Shown here piece after piece: positions 26,380 to 37,495 of a stretch of DNA of 64,000 bases (position 1 is its first letter; every line of letters starts with the position of its first letter). The position numbers and the translations under genes were made by a program. This DNA comes from Azospirillum brasilense. GTDB taxonomy: Bacteria; Pseudomonadota; Alphaproteobacteria; Azospirillales; Azospirillaceae. The notes beneath the pieces are model-generated. The model ran no database searches. It worked only from the letters and a program-made list of their open reading frames with translations, and was not told the DNA's origin. The stretch is taken from assembly GCF_001315015.1 (NCBI RefSeq), contig NZ_CP012915.1:1530001-1594000 (forward strand). Direction: 5' to 3'.

Positions 26380-26442
26380 GGAACTGTCCCTTGCTTCATG
26401 CACTCCGCTCCCGCAAGCGGAGACTTCGATCGTCACATGAGC

Positions 26443-26498
26443 AGTCCGACATCACCGATGCGCCACGGCGGGACGCATCGGCCAGAGGGGCCCGGACT
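26443..26498 (-). repeat. structured element, copy 1 (proximal to terC)
   Basis: On the plus strand AGTCCGACATCAC and GCCAGAGGGGCCCGGACT flank a seven-base-pair hairpin, CGATGCG at 26456-26462 with CGCATCG at 26474-26480. The outer ends AGTCCG and CGGACT also pair. Copy 2 shares the flanks but has a different hairpin. Confidence 0.65.
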
Positions 26499-26760
26499 GG
26501 AATCTCGGCCGCAAGGTCTGCGGCCAATGAGAAAGCGCGCGCAACGGCTCGGCCACGGCGCGTCAGGTCACCCGTCTCCATCGTTCGCCGTGGAGACGTG
26601 GCGGTCGGTCAGGATGTTGGTTCGGTGCGGTCCATGTCGATGTCTCCCAAAGGCCCGTCGGGTGCCGTCGTCCGGCGGTGGACCTTGTGGGGGGCGGGAC
26701 CCAGGGGGAAGAACAGGGCCAGCTTCCGCAAGGCCGCGCCAAGGCGACGGCTCAATGGGA

Positions 26761-26806
26761 AGTCCGACATCACAGCGCCGGGCGACGCTGCCAGAGGGGC
26801 CCGGAC
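26761..26806 (-). repeat. structured element, copy 2 (distal to terC)
   Basis: AGTCCGACATCAC (26761-26773) and GCCAGAGGGGCCCGGAC (26790-26806) are identical to the flanks of copy 1. The hairpin between them is AGCG/CGCT instead of CGATGCG/CGCATCG, so pairing is kept while sequence changes, as expected of a selected RNA structure. Confidence 0.65.
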
Positions 26807-27037
26807 CTCACCCGTCATGTAGTCAGGCCCCCTCCCGGCGACAAGAGGGGGGCGCGCTCTTTACGGGCCGTGATCGGTGCGATAGCCGCAGGCAACGGTA
26901 CCGTCCGGTTGATCGCCCATGGGTTGCCGGATTTCCGGCCGGAAGCCGACTTTGCGAATTCTGCATCGCCGATGGATGATTCCGCACCGGTGGGTTGTTC
27001 ATAGCGATTGACGGTAATTCACGGCAGGACACCCACA

Positions 27038-27496: not shown

Positions 27497-27562
27497 CACC
27501 GGTCGGACGAGGGCGGGCGGATTGCGGCTTGACCGGAGCCGTTCCGCCCGCGTAGCTTCGCA

Positions 27563-27770
27563 CCCGACGGTTGCCCGAAAGGGCTGAAAATGGGAACACG
27601 GTGCGGACCCCGCGGCGATTGGCCGTGCGAGGGTTCTACGCCGGGGCTGCCCCCGCAACTGTAAGCGGCGAGTCGTCCATCGGAATGCCACTGGGATCGC
27701 GATCCTGGGAAGGCGATGGGCCGACGATAACCCGCGAGCCAGGAGACCTGCCGTCAGTCGTGGTCACACG
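27563..27770 (+). ncRNA. cobalamin riboswitch
   Basis: Conserved cobalamin riboswitch blocks appear in order: AAAATGGGAACACGGTG at about 27587, GCTGCCCCCGCAACTGTAAG near 27648, and the B12 box GAGCCAGGAGACCTGCC at 27736-27752. It sits in the leader of btuB and would shut off the uptake operon when adenosylcobalamin is plentiful. Ends are approximate. Confidence 0.95.
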
Positions 27771-27885: not shown

Positions 27886-29814
27886 ATGAGTGTCCGCGTT
27901 CCCCGCCTTCACTGGACGGCGTCCTTCGCCGCCCTTCTGGGAAGCCTTGCCCTTCCCGTGTCGGCCATCCCCACGTCGGCCTTCGCCGATTCCCCCACCA
28001 TCACGACGCTTCCGCCGGTCTCGGTGACCGCCAACCGCGTTCCCACCGCCGCCGAGGAAACCGGCAGCGCCCTGACCGTCATCACCCGCGAGGAGTTGGA
28101 GCAGCGCCAGACCCAGCTGCTGTCCGACGCGCTGCGCACGGTGCCCGGCGTCGCCGTCAACCGCACCGGCCCGATGGGCACCCTGACCCAGCTCCGCATC
28201 CGCGGGTCGGAGGGCAACCAGACGCTCGTCCTGATCGACGGGATCGAGGTGAACGATCCCGCCGCCGGTTCCGAATATGATTTCGCCAACCTGCTGGCCG
28301 GTGATGTCGAGCGCGTCGAGGTGCTGCGCGGTCCGCAGAGCGCGCTCTACGGCTCCGACGCGGTCGGCGGCGTCGTCAACATCGTGACCCGCCGCGGCAC
28401 CGGCGCCCCCCGGTTCCGCGCCGCCATGGAGGGTGGGTCCTTCGGCACCGCCGCCGGGCGAGCCTCCTTCGGCACGGGGACCGACCGCTACGACCTGTTC
28501 CTCAGCGGCCAGGGCGTCACCAGCGACGGCGTGTCGGTCGCCGACAAGCGGCTCGGCAACCCGGAGAAGGACGGCTACCGCAACGGCACGCTGACCGGAA
28601 ACGCCGCCGTCCGCCCGACCGAGCGCAGCGAGATCGCGGTGACCGGCCGCTACACCCGCTTCCGCACCGACACCGACGGCTTCGTCGGCGGGCGCGGCGC
28701 CGTCGACGACGGGACCAGCACCGCCGGGGAGCAGTATTTCGGGCGCATCCAGGGCAAGATCGCCCTTCTCGACGGAAAGTGGGAGCACATCGTCGGCCTG
28801 ACCCATGGCCGCCAGCAGCGCGACTACCGCGACGACTCCAAGACGGTGACCAGCCGCTACGACGGGCGCAAGACCAAGGCCGACTACCAGACCAACCTGA
28901 CCCTGAACAGCGGCCCCGCCGACCATGTGCTGACCGCCGCCGTGGAGCATGAGGAAGACAAGGCGATCAGCCGCAGCAGCTTCTCCAGCTTCGACCGTTC
29001 CATCGGCTCCACCGGGCTGGTGGGCCAGTACAAGCTGGGCCTGTTCGATCGGCTGACCCTGACCGGCAGCGTCCGCCACGACGCGAACGACCTGTTCCGC
29101 GACGCCACCACATGGCGCACCACGGCGGCCTATCTGATCGAAGACAGCGGGACCAAGCTGCGCGCCTCCTACGGCACCGGCGTCAAGAATCCCACCCTGT
29201 TCGAGCTGTACGGCTACACCGCCACCTACGCCGGCAACCCGAACCTGAAGCCGGAACGGGCGCGCGGCTGGGACGCCGGCTTCGATCAGGCACTGTGGGG
29301 CACGCGGGCGTCGGTGGATGGCACATGGTTCGACCAGCGCATCCGCGACCTCATCACCGGCACCGGGCGGACCTCCGTCAACATGCCGGGCGAGTCCCAC
29401 ATCCGCGGCTTCGAGCTTGGCCTGTCGGTGGAGCCGATCGACCGGCTGACCGTCCGCGGCTCCTACACCTGGACCGACGGCGAGGATTCCACGGGGGCGG
29501 AGCTGGTGCGCCGGCCCAAGCAGCTCGCCAGCCTGACCGTCAACCACCGCTTCCTGGAGGACCGCGCGAACGTAAACCTCGGCGTCGTCTACAACGGTCG
29601 GTCCAGCGACTGGGCCTACGATCCCTTCTACAACCGGCAGGTCGTAAACCTCGCCCCCTACACGCTGGTCAACATGGCCGGGTCCTACGCGCTGTCCGAG
29701 GGGGTCGAACTCTTCGGGCGCGTGGAGAACCTGTTCGACCGCCGGTATCAGGAGGTCTGGACCTACGGCGCGCCGGGACGGGCCGGGTATCTCGGGCTGC
29801 GGCTGTCGCTGTGA
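27886..29814 (+). CDS. btuB: TonB-dependent vitamin B12 receptor BtuB
   Basis: A 642-residue outer-membrane receptor: signal peptide (cleavage near ALPVSAIPTSAFA), a TonB box-like PPVSVTANRV, a plug domain (LSDALRTVPGVAVNRTG, IDGIEVNDP, VEVLRGPQSALYGSDAVGG) and a 22-strand barrel ending in the phenylalanine-poor LGLRLSL. The cobalamin riboswitch 116 bases upstream and the downstream btuFCD genes fix the substrate as a corrinoid. It is the first gene of the operon. Confidence 0.95.
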   Translation: MSVRVPRLHWTASFAALLGSLALPVSAIPTSAFADSPTITTLPPVSVTANRVPTAAEETGSALTVITREELEQRQTQLLSDALRTVPGVAVNRTGPMGTLTQLRIRGSEGNQTLVLIDGIEVNDPAAGSEYDFANLLAGDVERVEVLRGPQSALYGSDAVGGVVNIVTRRGTGAPRFRAAMEGGSFGTAAGRASFGTGTDRYDLFLSGQGVTSDGVSVADKRLGNPEKDGYRNGTLTGNAAVRPTERSEIAVTGRYTRFRTDTDGFVGGRGAVDDGTSTAGEQYFGRIQGKIALLDGKWEHIVGLTHGRQQRDYRDDSKTVTSRYDGRKTKADYQTNLTLNSGPADHVLTAAVEHEEDKAISRSSFSSFDRSIGSTGLVGQYKLGLFDRLTLTGSVRHDANDLFRDATTWRTTAAYLIEDSGTKLRASYGTGVKNPTLFELYGYTATYAGNPNLKPERARGWDAGFDQALWGTRASVDGTWFDQRIRDLITGTGRTSVNMPGESHIRGFELGLSVEPIDRLTVRGSYTWTDGEDSTGAELVRRPKQLASLTVNHRFLEDRANVNLGVVYNGRSSDWAYDPFYNRQVVNLAPYTLVNMAGSYALSEGVELFGRVENLFDRRYQEVWTYGAPGRAGYLGLRLSL

Positions 29815-30671
29815 GGCCCATTCGTCTCGGGCTGGCCGCCGCCCTCCTGCTGATTGCGGGAGGGCCGGCGGCGGCATGGGAGGCGCCGCCCGCCACGCCC
29901 CCCGGCAAACCGCAGCGCATCGTCTCCCTGAATCTCTGCGCCGACGAGCTGCTGTTGCGGCTCGTCGGGCCGGAGCGCCTCGCCGCGGTGACGTGGCTGG
30001 CGCGCGATCCCCGCGCCTCCACCGTGGCGCCGCTGGCGGCGCGGGTGCCGATCAACCATGGGCTGGCGGAAGAGATCCTGCCGCTCGACCCCGACCTGAT
30101 CGTCGCCGGACGCTACACCACGCGGGTCGCGGTCGGGCTGTTGACCCGGCTGGACGCCCCGCTCCTGGAGCTGGACGTCCCCCAGAGCGTGGCCGGGGTG
30201 GCGGAGCAGATCCGCGGCCTCGCCCGCGCCGTCGGCGAGCCGGAGCGGGGGGAGGAGCTGGTCGCCGCAATGCGCTCCCGCCTGGACGCCCTGCCCCCCG
30301 CGGCGCCGGGACCGCGCCCGACCGCGGTGGTGCTGCGCCCCAACGGTTTCGTCGCCGGGTCCGGGTCGCTGGTCGACGAACTCCTGAGCCGCGCCGGTTT
30401 GGAGAACATGGCCGACCGCCTGCCGCTGGGCAGCCAGGGCGCCCTGCCGCTGGAGGCCATCATTCTGGGCGGCGCGGACGTGCTGATCGTCGACGCCGCG
30501 CCCGACGCGCCGCCATCGCTGGCCGGCGCCCTGCTGCACCACCCGGCCCTGAAAGCTTTGAAGCGTCAGGTTCGCACGCTGTCGCTGCCCTCCCGCCTGT
30601 GGACCTGCCCCGGCCCGCAGATCGCCGAGGCCGCGGAACGGCTGGCCGCCGTGCGGGAGGCGCCGCCATGA
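29811..30671 (+). CDS. btuF: cobalamin-binding periplasmic protein (BtuF-like)
   Basis: A 286-residue class III binding protein. A signal peptide ends near GGPAAAWEA; the helical-backbone fold begins RIVSLNLCADELLLRLVGPERL and includes LDPDLIVAGRYTT. The GTG start at 29811 overlaps the btuB stop by four bases, and no later start keeps the signal peptide. It should deliver B12 from the periplasm to BtuCD. The next gene again overlaps by four bases. Confidence 0.9.
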   Translation: MRPIRLGLAAALLLIAGGPAAAWEAPPATPPGKPQRIVSLNLCADELLLRLVGPERLAAVTWLARDPRASTVAPLAARVPINHGLAEEILPLDPDLIVAGRYTTRVAVGLLTRLDAPLLELDVPQSVAGVAEQIRGLARAVGEPERGEELVAAMRSRLDALPPAAPGPRPTAVVLRPNGFVAGSGSLVDELLSRAGLENMADRLPLGSQGALPLEAIILGGADVLIVDAAPDAPPSLAGALLHHPALKALKRQVRTLSLPSRLWTCPGPQIAEAAERLAAVREAPP

Positions 30672-31686
30672 GCTGGGCCATGAGTTGGGACTCGCGCATC
30701 CCCTACCCCGCCCTGGTCGCCGGGCTGACGCTCCTCGCGCTGATGCTCTGCGCGGTGTCGGCGGCGGTCGGCTATGTGCCGTTCGACCTGGGCACCGCTT
30801 TGTCCGACTGGCTCGCCGGGCGCCCCACCCTGGGCGCGCTGGTGCTGGCCGAATTGCGCCTGCCGCGCGCCCTGCTCGGCTTGCTGGTCGGCTTCAGCCT
30901 GGGGCTGACCGGGGCGGCGATGCAGGGCTGGCTGCGCAACCCGCTGGCCGAGCCGGGACTGGTCGGCGTGTCGAGCGCCGCGGCGCTGGGCGCGGTCATC
31001 GTCTTCTACAGCGGCCTGTCCGCCGCGCTGTCGCTGGCCCTGCCGCTCGGCGGCATGGCCGGAGCAGCCACCGCCGCGGTGCTGCTGAACCTGATGGCGG
31101 CGCGGGGTGCCGGAACGACGGCGCTGGTCATCGGCGGCATCGCCATCAACAGCCTCGCCGGGTCGCTGACCGCGCTGGCCCTCAACCTCGCCCCCAACCC
31201 CTACGCGGCGCTGGAGATCGTGTTCTGGCTGATGGGGTCGCTGGCCGACCGCGGCACCGACCAGCTCTGGCTCGTCCTGCCGCCGATGCTGGCGGGCTGG
31301 GCGCTCTGCCTGTCCGGCGCCCGCGCGCTCGACGCGCTGACCCTGGGGGAGGACGCGGCGCGCAGCCTTGGCTTCGACCTGACCGGGCTGCGCGTCCGGC
31401 TGATCGCCGGGGCGGCGCTGGCGGTGGGCAGCGCGGTGTCGGTCACCGGCGCCGTGGGCTTCGTCGGTCTGGTGGCGCCGCACCTGATGCGCCCTCTGGC
31501 CGGGGCGCGGCCCGGACGGCTGCTGCTGCTGGCGGGCCTCGCCGGAGCGTGCCTGACCCTGGCCGCGGACATCGCCGTCCGGCTGCTGCCGACGCGGCCG
31601 GAACTGAAGCTGGGCGTGGTCACCGCCCTGATCGGGGCGCCCTTCCTGATCGTCCTGATCGCCCGGCTGCGGCGGGAGGAGGCGTG

Positions 31687-31687
<1 letters not shown>
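30668..31687 (+). CDS. btuC: cobalamin ABC transporter permease (BtuC/FecCD family)
   Basis: A FecCD-type permease of 339 residues with about ten membrane helices. Family motifs include LRLPRALLGLLVGFSLGLTGAAMQG, NPLAEPGLVGVSS and VTGAVGFVGLVAPHLMRP, the latter contacting the ATPase. It starts in an ATGA overlap with btuF. An ATG at 30680 is a possible alternative start. Confidence 0.93.
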
Positions 31688-32486
<799 letters not shown>

Positions 32487-32487
<1 letters not shown>

Positions 32488-33200
32488 TGAGCGACCTGAC
32501 TTCCCTGCTGCGCAACGCGCTGAACGACCCGGCCACCGGCTGGAGCCTCGGCGCCTTCGGTGCCATCGCGGAGTTCATCCGCGACCCGGACGAACCCGCC
32601 ACCCTGCGCGACGACGGCCCGGAGCTGGAGGCGCGGACCGCCCGCGGCGGGCTGCGCCTCCGCCCCACGCCGGCGATCCGCGCGGTGCCCTACCGGACGC
32701 GCAGCGGCAGCCTCGCCGTGGCCCTCTGCCTGCCCCGTCACGTCGGCGCGATGAACCGGCGCGGCGTGGTGACCGAGCTGGGTCCCGACCGCGAGGCCAT
32801 CGCCGAAGCGGACCGCGACGCCCTGCTGTTCGACCTCGGGCTGGGCGTCTTCCAGACCGACGTCTGCGTCCGCAGCTCCGACCCCGTCACCATCGCCCGC
32901 CTGCGCGCGGTCGCCGGGACGGAGCTGCTGGCGCCGGGCAACCCGCTGCCGCCCGACCTGCCGGCGCTCAGCCCCGACCGCGTCTTCATCGGCCCCTTCG
33001 GCCGGATCGAGGTCAGCCAGCCGATCCCGCCGCCCGACGGCCGCAGCCCGGAGGGTCCGCACACCCATGTCCTGCCGAAGCTGTTGGCCCACAACCGGAC
33101 CCACGCGGCGACCGTGCCGATTCCGGACGGCTGGGTGCCCAGCCTGTACCTGTCGCCGCCCGCGGAGTCCTTCGCCGCGTGGGAGGGGTTGGGGCACTGA
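32487..33200 (+). CDS. uncharacterised protein linked to B12 uptake
   Basis: A soluble 237-residue protein with no signal peptide or membrane helix. The start overlaps the btuD stop by one base (TGATG), so it belongs to the operon. The N-terminus (LNDPATGWSLGAFGAIAEF) and a histidine-bearing segment (GPHTHVLPKLLAHNRTHA) stand out; the latter could bind a metal or corrinoid. I know conserved proteins of this kind in alphaproteobacteria but no experimentally shown function. A role in corrinoid trafficking is inference from position only. Confidence 0.75.
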
Positions 33201-33205
33201 GGTCC

Positions 33206-33307
33206 TGCCCCCACCCTGACCCTCCCCCGCTACGAGGTGGAGGGGACTGCCGCCGCTTCGCTCAAGCCCCCCTCTCCCGCGAAGCGGGGGAGGGTTGGGG
33301 AGGGGGC
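33206..33307. repeat. dispersed GC-rich intergenic repeat, copy A
   Basis: A palindromic element bounded by TGCCCCCACCCTGACC on one side and GGTTGGGGAGGGGGCA on the other fills the gap between the convergent B12 operon and P-type ATPase gene. The same pattern recurs near 49.4 and 58.7 kb. Confidence 0.7.
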
Positions 33308-35400
33308 ACCGACGCCGCCGGCGCGCGGCGCAGCGCGTTGAGCAGAATCCCGATCGTGGTCCCGTTGTGCAGCACGGCGGTGCCCACCGGGGACAGCAGG
33401 CCCAGCGCGGCGGCGCCGAGGATCGCGCTGTTCAGTCCGACCGTCAGCCGATAGTTGCGGGCGATCAGCGCCATGGCGGCGTTCGCCGTCTCCTTGGCGT
33501 CGGCCACCCGCTCGATCCGATCCTCCAGAAGCGCCACATCGGCGGTCAGCCGGGCGATGTCCGCCCCTTTCTGCATGGCGATGCCGACATGGGCGCCGGC
33601 CAGCGCCGGGGCGTCGTTGATGCCGTCGCCAACGAAGGCGATGCGCGCGCCTTCGCGGCTGAGATCCTCGATGATGCGGGCCTTGTCGGTGGGCAGCAGG
33701 TCGGCGTGGAAGCCGTCGAGATGCAGCTCCGCGGCCAGCTCGGCGGCGCGGTCCTGGTGGTCGCCGGTCAGCATCAGCACCCGCTTCACCCCGGCCCGCC
33801 GCAGCCGCGCGATGGTCGCCGCGCTGGCCGCGCGCACGCTGTCCTTCAACGCCAGCACGCCGGCCAGCACCCCGCCGAAGCCGATGAACAGCAGCGTCTT
33901 GCCGTCGCGGTGCAGCGCGTCGATGGCCCCGCGGTGGGCGGTGGTATCGATGCCCTCGTCGTCCTCGATGAAGTGGCGGGAGCCGACGACGATGCGCTTG
34001 CCGTCGATGACGCTGGCCACCCCGTGGGCGACGATGAACTTGACCTCCTGATGGTCGAAGTGGCGGTTGTGCGTTTCCTTGGCGGCGTTGACCACGGCCA
34101 TCGCCAGCGGGTGGAAGTAATGCTCCTCCACCGAGGCGGCGAGGCAGATCAGGTCATCGGGGCTGAAGGTCGGGTCGAAGGCGATGGAATCGGTCACCTG
34201 AAGGTCGCCGGTGGTCAGCGTGCCGGTCTTGTCGAAGATGACCGTGTCGGCCTGGGCCAGCCGTTCCAACGCGTTGGCGCCCTTGATCAGGATGCCCGCC
34301 TGCCCCGCCCCGTACATGGCCGACTTGAAGGCCACCGGGGTCGCCAGCTTCAGCGCGCAGGAATAGTCGGCCTGGAGCACCGACGCGGCGCTGCGCCAGT
34401 CGCCGGTCATCAGGAAGGAGCCGCCGGCCAGCTTCAGCACCGTGGGAACCAGCCGGTCGGCCAACCGCGCCGCGTCGAGCTGCGCCTCGCTCTTGGCGGT
34501 CAGCGACTGTTCGACGTAATCGGCGATGCGGGCCGCGGCGGTGTGGCTGCCGACATGCTCGGCGTAGACGACCAGCCGCCCCTCCTCCATCAGCGTGCCG
34601 GACAGGACGGCGGAACCGCGCTGCTTGACCACCGGGGCGCTCTCGCCGGTCATGGCGGCCTCGTTGACGGTCGCCTCCCCGCTCAGCACCGTGCCGTCCA
34701 CCGGGATCACCGTCCCGGCGCCGATGACCACGCTGTCGCCGACCAGGACGGTGTCGGCGGGCAACTGGATCTCCACGCCGTCGCGCAGCAGCCACACCTG
34801 ATCGCTCGACGGGCGGAGCAGCCGCTTCAGCAGCGCGTCCGACCGGCGGGCGATGGACTCCTCCATGTATTCGCCGAGCGCCAGCATGAAGACGGTGGTG
34901 TTGGCCGCGGTGAAATCCCGTCGCGCCAGGGAGATCGCCACCGCCGCCGCTTCCAGAACATGGGAGTTGACACCCTCCCGCCCGTAGATGGCCACGCCCT
35001 CGCGCAGCATCGGCATCGCGACGGCCAGCGACAGCGGCAGGCGCAGCGGCATGGGCAGAAGGAAACCGCCGACCAGCGTGGCGAGGCTGCGGACCAGCGT
35101 CGCGCCGTGATTTTCCCCGCCCTCCGCCGCCGGGGCGGGCGGTGGCGGTTCGGGAATCGGCAGGGCGGCCAGCGCAAGGCACAGCGCCGTGGCGTCCGTC
35201 ACCGCGGGATCGTAGCGGACGGCCAGTGACCGCGCAGCGCGGCTCACCCGAACCGACGTCACCCCGGCGACCGCCTCCACCACCCGGTGCAGGGTCGTCG
35301 TGTCGTCGGGGGCGCCGGGACGGCAGGCGTAGCGCAGCCGGACGCGCCCCGGAACCCGATGGACCGGCTCCAGCCGCAGGAACCAGGGCAGGCCGCTCAT
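33262..35400 (-). CDS. heavy-metal P-type ATPase with SCALKL motif
   Basis: A 712-residue P1-type ATPase. The actuator TGES (residues 251-254), phosphorylation DKTGTLTTG (Asp390), the HP of the nucleotide domain (EEHYFHPLA) and the hinge GDGINDAPAL are intact. The membrane helix that holds CPC in copper and zinc pumps here reads YSCALKLATP (346-355), so the metal is not predictable. Residues 9-70 form a degenerate HMA-like domain without CxxC, sharing VPGRVRL and YDPAV with two small proteins of the same operon. It is the last gene of that operon. The last few codons lie inside the dispersed repeat. Confidence 0.92.
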   Translation of the reverse strand: MSGLPWFLRLEPVHRVPGRVRLRYACRPGAPDDTTTLHRVVEAVAGVTSVRVSRAARSLAVRYDPAVTDATALCLALAALPIPEPPPPAPAAEGGENHGATLVRSLATLVGGFLLPMPLRLPLSLAVAMPMLREGVAIYGREGVNSHVLEAAAVAISLARRDFTAANTTVFMLALGEYMEESIARRSDALLKRLLRPSSDQVWLLRDGVEIQLPADTVLVGDSVVIGAGTVIPVDGTVLSGEATVNEAAMTGESAPVVKQRGSAVLSGTLMEEGRLVVYAEHVGSHTAAARIADYVEQSLTAKSEAQLDAARLADRLVPTVLKLAGGSFLMTGDWRSAASVLQADYSCALKLATPVAFKSAMYGAGQAGILIKGANALERLAQADTVIFDKTGTLTTGDLQVTDSIAFDPTFSPDDLICLAASVEEHYFHPLAMAVVNAAKETHNRHFDHQEVKFIVAHGVASVIDGKRIVVGSRHFIEDDEGIDTTAHRGAIDALHRDGKTLLFIGFGGVLAGVLALKDSVRAASAATIARLRRAGVKRVLMLTGDHQDRAAELAAELHLDGFHADLLPTDKARIIEDLSREGARIAFVGDGINDAPALAGAHVGIAMQKGADIARLTADVALLEDRIERVADAKETANAAMALIARNYRLTVGLNSAILGAAALGLLSPVGTAVLHNGTTIGILLNALRRAPAASVPPPQPSPASRERGA

Positions 35401-35747
35401 AACGCTCCGGCCTGTTCCGCCTCCAGCTCGGCCTGGAGGTCGGCCATCTGCTCCTTCATCTCGGCGAGGCCGCCGGCGAGGTTGCCGTAGAGCTTCAGGC
35501 CGGACTTCACGATCTTGCCGCGCAGTTCCTCGTCGGACAGCACATAGGCCGCCGCCGCCCCGACCAGCAGCCCGATCAGAAACTGCTCGGACCGGCGCGA
35601 CGGGAGAAGACCGCTCAGCCCGCCGAGAAGCCCCTGCCCCCGCGCCGCATTGGCGCCCATCGGCGTACCGCCGGCGGCCATGGCGGCTTCGTACTGGCGT
35701 TGCTGCTTCTTCAGCTTCTTCAACGCCTTCTTGGTCTTCTTAGCCAT
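35397..35747 (-). CDS. small YtxH-like protein
   Basis: A 116-residue protein. The first 20 residues are lysine-rich (KKTKKALKKLKKQQRQ), a single hydrophobic helix follows (EQFLIGLLVGAAAAYVLS), and the C-terminal half is a probable amphipathic coiled coil (AEMKEQMADLQAELEAEQ). This layout resembles YtxH-like proteins of unknown function. It overlaps the ATPase start by four bases. Confidence 0.75.
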   Translation of the reverse strand: MAKKTKKALKKLKKQQRQYEAAMAAGGTPMGANAARGQGLLGGLSGLLPSRRSEQFLIGLLVGAAAAYVLSDEELRGKIVKSGLKLYGNLAGGLAEMKEQMADLQAELEAEQAGAL

Positions 35748-36096
35748 GGGGGTCCTCGTGTTTCGGCCGTTCTTGCGGCGGCTCTTCCGCCGGATTCAGC
35801 AGATGTTCGATCATGACCACGCCCGCCGCCCCGGCGGCGACCGCCAACGCGAGGCGCGCGTAGTCGCGGTTGCGCAGGGCGTCGGCGGCGACGCTGGCGG
35901 CGGCCAGCGCCGCACCACCCTGCAGGCCGTGGCGCAGGACGGTGCGCGGCGCGGGGGGCTCAGCCCCCGTCACCCAGCGGTCCTGGACAGCGGTCAGCAG
36001 GCCGGTCGCCACCATGCCGCGCGTGAAGTCGCGCGTGATGTTGGCGGCGAGCGTGCCGGAGCCCCGCGCCTTGCCGCGCCGTTTCGCGCGTTTCAC
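35740..36096 (-). CDS. small basic membrane-associated protein
   Basis: A 118-residue protein with a strongly basic N-terminus (MKRAKRRGKARG), two hydrophobic segments (GGAALAAASVAADAL and LALAVAAGAAGVVMIEHLL) and an acidic tail. I recognise no family. It overlaps both neighbours by a few bases, so it is translated as part of the ATPase operon. Confidence 0.72.
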   Translation of the reverse strand: MKRAKRRGKARGSGTLAANITRDFTRGMVATGLLTAVQDRWVTGAEPPAPRTVLRHGLQGGAALAAASVAADALRNRDYARLALAVAAGAAGVVMIEHLLNPAEEPPQERPKHEDPHG

Positions 36097-36449
36097 GCGG
36101 CCCCCGGTGCGGCGGACGGCGCCGGCTCAGACTTTGCCGGCTCCGCCACATCTTCCTTTGCCGGCTCCGCCTCGGCGGGCGCCGCCTCGACGGGGGCTTC
36201 CTCCACCGGCGTGGCGAGATGGGAGCGCAGACCGGCGGAGGTCCGCTCGATGGCGAGCAGGCCGGTGACCGCGGCCTCGCGCACCGCGGTCTGGGCCTTG
36301 CCGGCGCCCTCGCGGGCGGCGGCCTTCACATCGATGGACTTGAGGTCGGCGATCTTGGGATCGGCCTTGGCCTTGGCGTTTTTCACCATCCGGACGCCGA
36401 TGGCCCCGGCGATCACGCCGGACGCGAATGTCAGAAGCGGCAGCATCAT
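36093..36449 (-). CDS. small protein with one membrane helix and Ala/Glu-rich tail
   Basis: The N-terminus (LLTFASGVIAGAIGVRMV) is a glycine-rich membrane helix of the type seen in DUF5132-like proteins; a lysine/alanine-rich region and an acidic Pro-Ala-Glu tail follow. The start at 36449 follows AAAGGAG. It overlaps the gene upstream by four bases. Function unknown; the assignment to DUF5132 is tentative. Confidence 0.72.
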   Translation of the reverse strand: MMLPLLTFASGVIAGAIGVRMVKNAKAKADPKIADLKSIDVKAAAREGAGKAQTAVREAAVTGLLAIERTSAGLRSHLATPVEEAPVEAAPAEAEPAKEDVAEPAKSEPAPSAAPGAA

Positions 36450-36808
36450 GGTCTCCTTTCGAGCGCGCCGCCCGCAAAGCCGGCGGTGGCGATGCGCAGC
36501 AGCGTCGCGGCCGCCGCGCTGGCTTCCCCGCTCAGCAGATCCGGCCACGCCGAGGGCGGAATCACTGCGGGGTCGTATTCGATGGTGCAGGACCGGGCGA
36601 GCGGGTTCAGCGCGACGGAGCGGATGCCCTCCGCACCGGTGAGCGCCCGGTGCAGCGCCCTGGCGTCGTCGGCCAGCGACGCCAGGGCGCGCTCCGCGGC
36701 GCCGTCGAGCTTCAGCCGCACCCGACCCGGAATGTGGTGCGCGATGGTCAGGGCGGCGGCCAACCGGCTGAGAAAGTCGTCGGGCATGTTCGGGGCGTGG
36801 TCGATCAT
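36446..36808 (-). CDS. free-standing HMA-like (HMA_2 type) domain protein
   Basis: A 120-residue soluble protein consisting of one ferredoxin-like HMA fold: HHIPGRVRLKLDG at the first strand and SCTIEYDPAVIP at the last. The CxxC metal motif is missing; the only cysteine, in RSCTIEYD, is not at the metal loop. The motif pair matches the N-terminal domain of the ATPase in the same operon, so it probably docks with or regulates that pump. Confidence 0.8.
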   Translation of the reverse strand: MIDHAPNMPDDFLSRLAAALTIAHHIPGRVRLKLDGAAERALASLADDARALHRALTGAEGIRSVALNPLARSCTIEYDPAVIPPSAWPDLLSGEASAAAATLLRIATAGFAGGALERRP

Positions 36809-36821
36809 TGAAGGTGGTCGG

Positions 36822-37301
36822 TCATTGGAAGAGGCGTTTGCGCTGAACGGTCATGTGGACGAGCATGAAGGCGACGAACAGCGTGCCGAAGCCGGCATGG
36901 ACGCGCTTGCCCACCCCCAGCGCCGCCAGGGTCGCCGCCATGCTGCCCATCATTCCGATCTTGGCCGCGCGGTTGATCCGCCATTTCAACTCGGGCACGG
37001 CCGGCTTGCTGTCCGCGACGGGGGCGGGGGCGTCCGGCGACGGTGCGGCCTCCGCGGGGTGCAGGACCGCCGACAGCAGCGCCTCCACCTGGGACCGGGC
37101 GTCATCCGGCGTCAACACAGCGGGGTCGTAGCTCAGCAGGACGCTGCCCACCGCCGGGTTGCTCTCGGTCACCCGGACGGCATCCAACGCCTCCAAACGC
37201 CCCAGCGCTTCCTGGAACCGGTCCGTCCGGCGCAGCAGCGGGTGGCGCACGCGGATGCGTCCAGGCACCGCCGATGCGATGGGGGAGGTTCGTCCGGTCA
37301 T
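36822..37301 (-). CDS. HMA-like domain protein with C-terminal membrane anchor
   Basis: First gene of the six-gene ATPase operon. Residues 8-85 form an HMA_2-like domain (VPGRIRVRHPLL near the start, VLLSYDPAVLTPDD at the end) again without CxxC. An acidic proline-rich linker follows and then two hydrophobic segments (IGMMGSMAATLAALGVG and FGTLFVAFMLVHMTV). The 195-base gap upstream carries an inverted repeat. The function is unknown; a partner role for the pump is inferred. Confidence 0.8.
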   Translation of the reverse strand: MTGRTSPIASAVPGRIRVRHPLLRRTDRFQEALGRLEALDAVRVTESNPAVGSVLLSYDPAVLTPDDARSQVEALLSAVLHPAEAAPSPDAPAPVADSKPAVPELKWRINRAAKIGMMGSMAATLAALGVGKRVHAGFGTLFVAFMLVHMTVQRKRLFQ

Positions 37302-37375
37302 TGCCCGTTCTCCTGCGTCAGCCGCGATCCGCCCACGCGGTCAAGGGCCTTCATGGTTGCGCAGGATATCCATAA

Positions 37376-37391
37376 TTTCACAATGGTGAAA
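37376..37391. promoter_or_regulatory. inverted repeat upstream of the P-type ATPase operon
   Basis: TTTCAC-aatg-GTGAAA is a perfect six-base inverted repeat in an AT-rich stretch 75 bases upstream of the first gene of the operon. It looks like an operator overlapping the promoter. Confidence 0.5.
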
Positions 37392-37495
37392 CATTTCCGC
37401 GGCGTTGCGCGCAGGCGCCGGACGCAAGGCGGCGTTGCGGAAAAACCGCGTCCTCACCCAAGAAGTGCAGGAACGGGGGAAGGGGTGGAATTCGC

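Follow-up and report, generated by a model that had tools for sequence, protein, structure and literature searches.

What does the P-type ATPase encoded by a compact six-gene operon of Azospirillum brasilense transport, and what are the five small proteins encoded with it for? The operon lies in a stretch of 64,000 nucleotides, hereafter the window (contig NZ_CP012915.1 of the NCBI RefSeq assembly GCF_001315015.1, positions 1,530,001 to 1,594,000), on the minus strand at 33262-37301, where the six packed genes noticed in an initial annotation made from the sequence alone were confirmed. The gene order is G1, G2, G3, G4, G5 and ATPase, with a 13-base gap between G1 and G2, 4-base overlaps at the G2-G3, G3-G4 and G5-ATPase joints, and an 8-base overlap of G4 and G5. 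All six genes are annotated, with identical lengths, in the record of A. brasilense Cd, under the names 'HMA2 domain-containing protein', 'cation transporter', two hypothetical proteins, 'YtxH domain-containing protein' and 'heavy metal translocating P-type ATPase'. Sequence comparison makes it likely that these genes form a six-gene fez cluster for ferrosomes, small iron stores enclosed by membrane within the bacterial cell, and the cluster probably makes visible ferrosomes in Azospirillum.

The pump provides the first line of evidence. In its transmembrane helix 4 (TM4), DYSCALKLATP stands in the place of CPx (Asp345, Cys348 and Lys351), as the initial annotation had it, and the C-terminal helix contains LHNGTT (His678 and Asn679); these five residues are invariant in an alignment of 8 rows. 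Six distant relatives carry [YF][SA]C[AG][LIV]K at the TM4 position, and HNG[TA]T is present in all five of those with the C-terminus in view. A tree of 52 rows groups the pumps that carry both motifs into a clade of 39 (support 99/97), apart from CPx pumps and from Cys-less pumps of a TG type; this tree includes no pump called P1B-6 in print, and the single-Cys criterion for TM4 ([SA]C..K for CPx) was derived from our own alignments. Judged by these motifs, the window pump is a P1B-6 ATPase. One paper lists the HN motif in TM6 among the marks of P1B6, a class that it calls poorly characterised (PMC9374683); a review table assigns Fe(II) to P1B-6 (PMC7558416), and a paper of 2016 states that no P1B-6 ATPase had yet been studied biochemically (PMC4932525). 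A literature search on 'SCALKL' found no paper. The pump had been called unusual on account of this motif, which is not supported, the motif being shared across the P1B-6 pumps seen here. Two plasmid records of A. brasilense contain copies with 100% identity to residues 1-688 of the ATPase.

The profile matches of the ATPase (463.6 bits against TIGR01525) give heavy-metal and cadmium families as the best NCBIfam names. These names would suit a soft-metal pump (Zn, Cd or Cu) with degenerate metal-binding domains, in which the CxxC-less HMA_2 proteins would be relics or weak chaperones, as would the zinc cargo of CtpC, which is called P1B6-like in the parts of two papers that were available (PMC9374683, PMC13043812). 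However, CPx and CxxC are both missing from the operon products, and the Asp, Cys, Lys, His and Asn residues at the TM4 and TM6 sites are invariant in the 8 aligned rows, so that, together with the gene neighbourhoods described below, we regard a soft-metal pump as highly improbable.

As a separate observation on this part of the ATPase tree, a sister group of P-type ATPases (loci L035, L036, L040, L043, L051, L071 and L188; loci and genomes are designated here by L and G numbers) has D.(G/M)TG[IVL]R in TM4, with Cys absent there, and spans four phyla, some members having stand-alone HMA_2 and G5-like proteins alongside. We know of no name for this TG-type group. An open reading frame (ORF) of 835 amino acids near one of these ATPases (L040:5888-8395) has a start that resembles, by eye, a RuvC segment of Cas9.

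The second line of evidence comes from the partners of the pump. The expectation that the small genes co-occur with such ATPases was borne out across phyla: within 4 kb of 56 P1B-6 loci, which are not independent because 17 of them are from Azospirillum and further ones from close relatives, and with neighbour profiles trained on part of the same loci, a G5-type protein was found in 54, an HMA_2-type protein in 49, G4 in 36 and G3 in 22 (16 of the latter in Azospirillum). The corresponding numbers for 66 loci of other P-type ATPases were 2, 5, 0 and 0, and, among the 60 CPx controls within this set, 0 for the G5 type and 1 for the HMA_2 type. When single window proteins were used as queries, 33 of the 39 non-Azospirillum P1B-6 loci produced matches vs 0/60 CPx and 2/6 TG-type controls. 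Among the 56 loci, 50 pass the strict motif rule; L030, L037, L039, L068 and L113 have the TM4 motif and failed the automatic test for the end motif (some of these ORFs are cut), and L188 in fact belongs to the TG type. At least 80 loci were covered by one of the scans behind these counts. Starts of ORFs were taken mechanically, and gene order was rechecked through the positions of matched domains.

The order of the genes is conserved as well. All 15 other Azospirillum regions of sufficient length have the six families in this order, a sixteenth (L126) ending at a contig edge; in L143, the domain-based recheck shows no separate place for G5 because the predicted ATPase ORF extends too far upstream, and the locus count lists a G5 there. 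Of 45 Azospirillum genomes, 17 encode the pump, counting that of the window, and it is rare in the taxonomic class: at E 1e-150 it was found in 3 of 385 genomes besides that of the window, one of which (G599) encodes the TG type. Outside Azospirillum, the full six-gene order was found in G858, G888, G814 and G1026; compared with G858 and G814, the ATPase is 70-72% identical and the small proteins 45-55%. The genomes G858, G888 and G814 represent one genus (g428), in which all four tested genomes have reaction-centre genes, and, over 307 aligned places, the M chain of G858 has 7 differences from that of PDB entries 6z5r/6z5s (707 bits, the next entry scoring 558), which we take to be from R. 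palustris. From these sequence matches, the three genomes are placed here in Rhodopseudomonas; another g428 genome, G912, was left out of the layout comparison. Yet another, G870 (L183), shows a layout other than that of L180-L182 and a pump from a different subclade, so that one genus displays two layouts.

These observations connect the operon to known iron-storage systems. FezB belongs to the P1B-6 class, and the ferrosomes of C. difficile require FezA and FezB. A preprint (PMC10979944) describes FezB as a putative transporter of ferrous iron, and R. palustris CGA009 is described as making ferrosomes with six fez genes, RPA2333-2338 (PMC12016538). The window operon has this reported number of genes, and its six families and their order recur in the three genomes that we place in Rhodopseudomonas. 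A shorter arrangement is that of D. magneticus, with the gene order fezABC, which shares with the Azospirillum operon a pump and a FezC-type protein and differs in that G2, G3 and G4 are extra in Azospirillum. A Mailhella locus (Desulfovibrionaceae, L037) with the order DUF6110 - ATPase - HMA_2 with a two-His hairpin is akin to D. magneticus fezABC. A limited literature search found nothing that ties Azospirillum or DUF6110 to ferrosomes, with one review mentioning Azospirillum and ferrosomes apart, so the novelty of the connection is unproven.

Additional evidence for the fez assignment comes from G1. Three products of the operon were originally described as sharing an HMA-like domain without CxxC, and this proved real, if faint in part. 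The Pfam family HMA_2 (PF19991) matches G1 just over the cut-off of 30 bits (E 1.8e-7, 31.6 bits), whereas the matches in G2 (E 5.7e-6, 26.8 bits) and at the N-terminus of the ATPase (E 0.013, 15.9 bits) fall under it; iterated profiles started from G1 and from G2 recover each other and the ATPase N-terminus. No CxxC is present in G1, G2 or the ATPase, which contain no Cys, one Cys and four single Cys, respectively. The possibility of an unrelated fold was raised at the outset; the HMA-like domain of G1, the one of the three that was modelled, is ferredoxin-like (beta-alpha-beta-beta-alpha, residues 8-80, with predicted local distance difference test (pLDDT) values of 94-98 in the block from residue 11), and its matches include HMA domains. 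Foldseek ranks an HMA domain of RAN1 first (E 0.045, in itself below significance); the VIA-align Z of many HMA domains is 6.5-7.6, and that of further ferredoxin-like folds reaches 8.8. Because other ferredoxin-like folds match equally well or better, we rejected these fold matches as specific to HMA domains.

Downstream of this domain, the model of G1 has two helices, 104-130 and 132-158, that form a hairpin. A profile of this hairpin, sometimes encoded as a separate small protein, produced matches in 30 of the 56 P1B-6 loci vs none of the 66 controls. The pattern H-x13-H is present in 30 of the 31 matching ORFs; the two His columns of the alignment are occupied by His in 28/31 and 29/31 sequences, the misses in L030 and L146 coming from a wrongly cut segment, and the second-copy hairpin ORF of L031 truly lacks the first His. 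The homologous hairpin of L028 resembles DUF4405 (2.9e-5) and cytochrome b561 (9.7e-4), both under the cut-offs. A preprint (PMC10979944) describes the ferrosome protein FezC as DUF4405-like and as binding heme b, and models the sites through homodimerisation. By analogy, given the two conserved His of the hairpin as in FezC-type cytochromes, G1 appears to be FezC-like and is a probable heme protein.

Another line of evidence on the cargo comes from iron uptake genes near related pumps. With one FeoB, an importer of ferrous iron, as the query and the search limited to the available stretch of each locus, FeoB-like genes were detected near 5 of the 56 P1B-6 loci (L025, L027, L031, L111 and L183) vs 0/66 controls, at distances of 0.5 to 5.4 kb and, in four of the five cases, on the strand of the pump. 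The Pseudothauera locus (L025) is a one-strand run of HMA_2, a protein weakly similar to rubrerythrin/DUF2202 (ferritin-like), G3, G4, G5, ATPase, FeoA and FeoB, in which FeoA overlaps the stop of the ATPase and FeoB follows about 220 bases further; its pump is 64% identical to that of the window. Pfam families of the neighbours were sampled in 150/251 and 150/260 ORFs, some of them surely spurious, and the 25 commonest families were taken. Among the matches listed, the sampled P1B-6 neighbours include FeoB (3/150), TonB receptors (3/150) and FeoA (2/150), and MerR, ArsR, cupredoxin and HMA (PF00403) are among the commonest beside the control pumps, a contrast that argues against the soft-metal pump considered above. 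A Cereibacter copy, carried by a conjugative plasmid, has FeoA, FecR and siderophore receptors in its vicinity. Taken together, the FeoA and FeoB neighbours of the relatives are suggestive of, and fit, the earlier proposal that the cargo may not be a soft metal. Plasmid-borne clusters of the same kind were also observed in Arcobacter (L021) and Vibrio (L023), besides Cereibacter (L022, typed conjugative), so that fez-like clusters may move between lineages.

The remaining small proteins bear on how the pump is organised in the membrane. No Pfam family matches G3 or G4. The description of three small proteins with single or double hydrophobic segments stands as far as the presence of the proteins is concerned but not for G4, which was modelled as three helices (mean pLDDT 73). 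The matches of G5 to YtxH (E 1.9e-4) and DUF5132 (E 0.0026), two families named at the outset, both fall under the cut-offs; these are the only families listed for G5 at E up to 1, so that neither DUF1490 (PacL) nor DUF6110 was matched in G5 itself. Nevertheless, comparison of the G5 set with the DUF6110 set gave an hhalign probability of 89, and DUF6110 proteins hold the place of G5 beside some other P1B-6 pumps (L068, 3.3e-39; L094, 4e-35; L030, 2.2e-7; L037, 2.4e-7; L039, 2.7e-4, under the cut-off). According to the accessible parts of two papers, DUF6110 proteins have been proposed as platform scaffolds of P1B6 pumps (PMC9374683, PMC13043812). The suggestion that the small proteins gate or feed the pump thus appears too narrow, the best parallel being a scaffold (PacL/DUF6110) and not a metal donor.

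The same parallel brings in an alternative, namely, that the operon encodes a plasma-membrane platform for Fe(II) efflux (effluxosome) that forms no organelle, comparable to PacL1-CtpC, which serves for zinc in mycobacteria. In the available parts of the descriptions (PMC9374683, PMC13043812), PacL1 gathers with CtpC in foci, and the PacL1-CtpC and DUF6110-P1B6 pairs, as in the window, consist of a pump with HN in TM6 beside a small single-helix protein. The resemblance of the G5 profile to DUF6110 is compatible with such a platform, and the Feo neighbours of the relatives would also suit export of surplus iron. In contrast to the window operon, CtpC has CPC and a zinc cargo and PacL1 has a metal-binding motif, and the accessible descriptions of the PacL systems (PMC9374683, PMC13043812) include neither HMA_2 partners nor a heme hairpin. 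The layout of six genes and the FezC-like hairpin agree with what has been described for ferrosome makers, and neither is found in the PacL descriptions in so far as these are accessible; we therefore consider the efflux platform unlikely.

Several observations weigh against identification of the operon as a fez cluster. No FeoB was found in the available stretch of the other 51 of the 56 P1B-6 loci, and no iron gene adjoins the operon in the window, where a riboswitch-led cluster lies on the convergent side and a hybrid histidine kinase on the upstream side. No hairpin was found within reach in 26 of the 56 loci, including the Feo-linked one of Pseudothauera; the DUF4405 match in G1 itself is weak (residues 132-151, E 0.046), and DUF4405 was not matched in the Rhodopseudomonas G1 (L182). 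The comparison with CGA009 (RPA2333-2338) and with D. magneticus fezABC is by description, and the aligned sequences include no fez gene named in the literature, those of S. putrefaciens and C. difficile among them; ferrosomes are reported for CGA009 and are predicted for Azospirillum. Finally, no Fur box was recognised by eye in the upstream region, and the fez cluster of C. difficile is reported to be under Fur control.

If the operon is a fez cluster, the computed features, that is, gene content, order and conservation, motifs, pump clade, the modelled fold of G1 and the Feo neighbours of relatives, suggest the following scheme, in which we infer the cargo, the organelle, the heme, the scaffold and the docking. 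The FezB-like P1B-6 ATPase would move cytosolic Fe(II), entering through the Asp/Cys/Lys and His/Asn ligands, into membrane vesicles or invaginations, where the iron would be kept as a mineral. G5 and probably G3 and G4, as small helical membrane proteins, would gather or shape a membrane patch and keep the pump in it. The two-His hairpin of the FezC-like G1 could dimerise around heme b and alter the redox state of the stored iron, and the CxxC-less HMA_2 domains of G1, G2 and the pump would be docking modules rather than metal binders. More tentatively, and with some doubt on our part, ferrosomes and PacL effluxosomes might be two outcomes of one old assembly of a P1B-6(-like) pump and a single-helix scaffold (G5/DUF6110/PacL), to which the six-gene version would add CxxC-less HMA_2 adaptors, one of them fused to the heme hairpin, that dock the pump, the redox protein and the scaffold into one iron-loading complex.

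If these predictions are correct, organelles that store iron are to be expected in A. brasilense, a much-studied nitrogen fixer that lives in association with plants, and it would be a tractable host for their study. Handles on the roles of the small fez proteins are provided by the HMA_2 domain fused to the two-His hairpin, by the repeated occurrence of HMA_2 and G5 partners and by the feoA-feoB run of Pseudothauera.

The region upstream of G1 contains a block, TTTCACCATTGTGAAA, followed in most cases by TATTCT, at about 37360-37400, that is kept in the Azospirillum copies nearest to that of the window; it is clear in 11 of 16 aligned upstream regions and not in L142-L146. The upstream region contains a conserved palindrome. 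Judging from this conservation, the block is a possible operator and promoter, with a weak case for a sigma-70 reading.

Features of the six-gene operon and its upstream region (window coordinates)
Feature	Coordinates	Strand	Description
G1	36822..37301	-	159 aa; HMA_2 (~8-83) and two-helix membrane hairpin with His135 and His149; FezC-like
G2	36446..36808	-	120 aa; stand-alone HMA_2-like protein without CxxC; one Cys
G3	36093..36449	-	118 aa (second of two ATGs); N-terminal hydrophobic helix, then Ala/Pro/Glu-rich tail
G4	35740..36096	-	118 aa, GTG start; Gly/Ala-rich; three helices in model
G5	35397..35747	-	116 aa; single glycine-zipper helix between a basic N-terminus and an acidic tail; YtxH/DUF5132-like
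P1B-6 ATPase (FezB-like)	33262..35400	-	712 aa; Cys-poor HMA_2-like N-terminus; DKTGT; motifs in TM4 and C-terminus
Upstream intergenic region	37302..37495	-	conserved block; presumed promoter/operator

The convergent neighbours of the operon (27886-33200, plus strand) are annotated in the Cd record as ATP-binding cassette (ABC) transporter genes, one of them as 'iron ABC transporter permease'. A cobalamin riboswitch (27551-27769, plus strand) precedes this run, which is probably involved in B12 uptake; because of the riboswitch ahead of the cluster, we rejected these 'iron' genes as support for an iron cargo and left them uncounted. The run ends with a gene that matches DUF6925. Two terC RNA elements were also detected on the minus strand, at 26437-26503 and 26755-26812, with about 250 bases between them.

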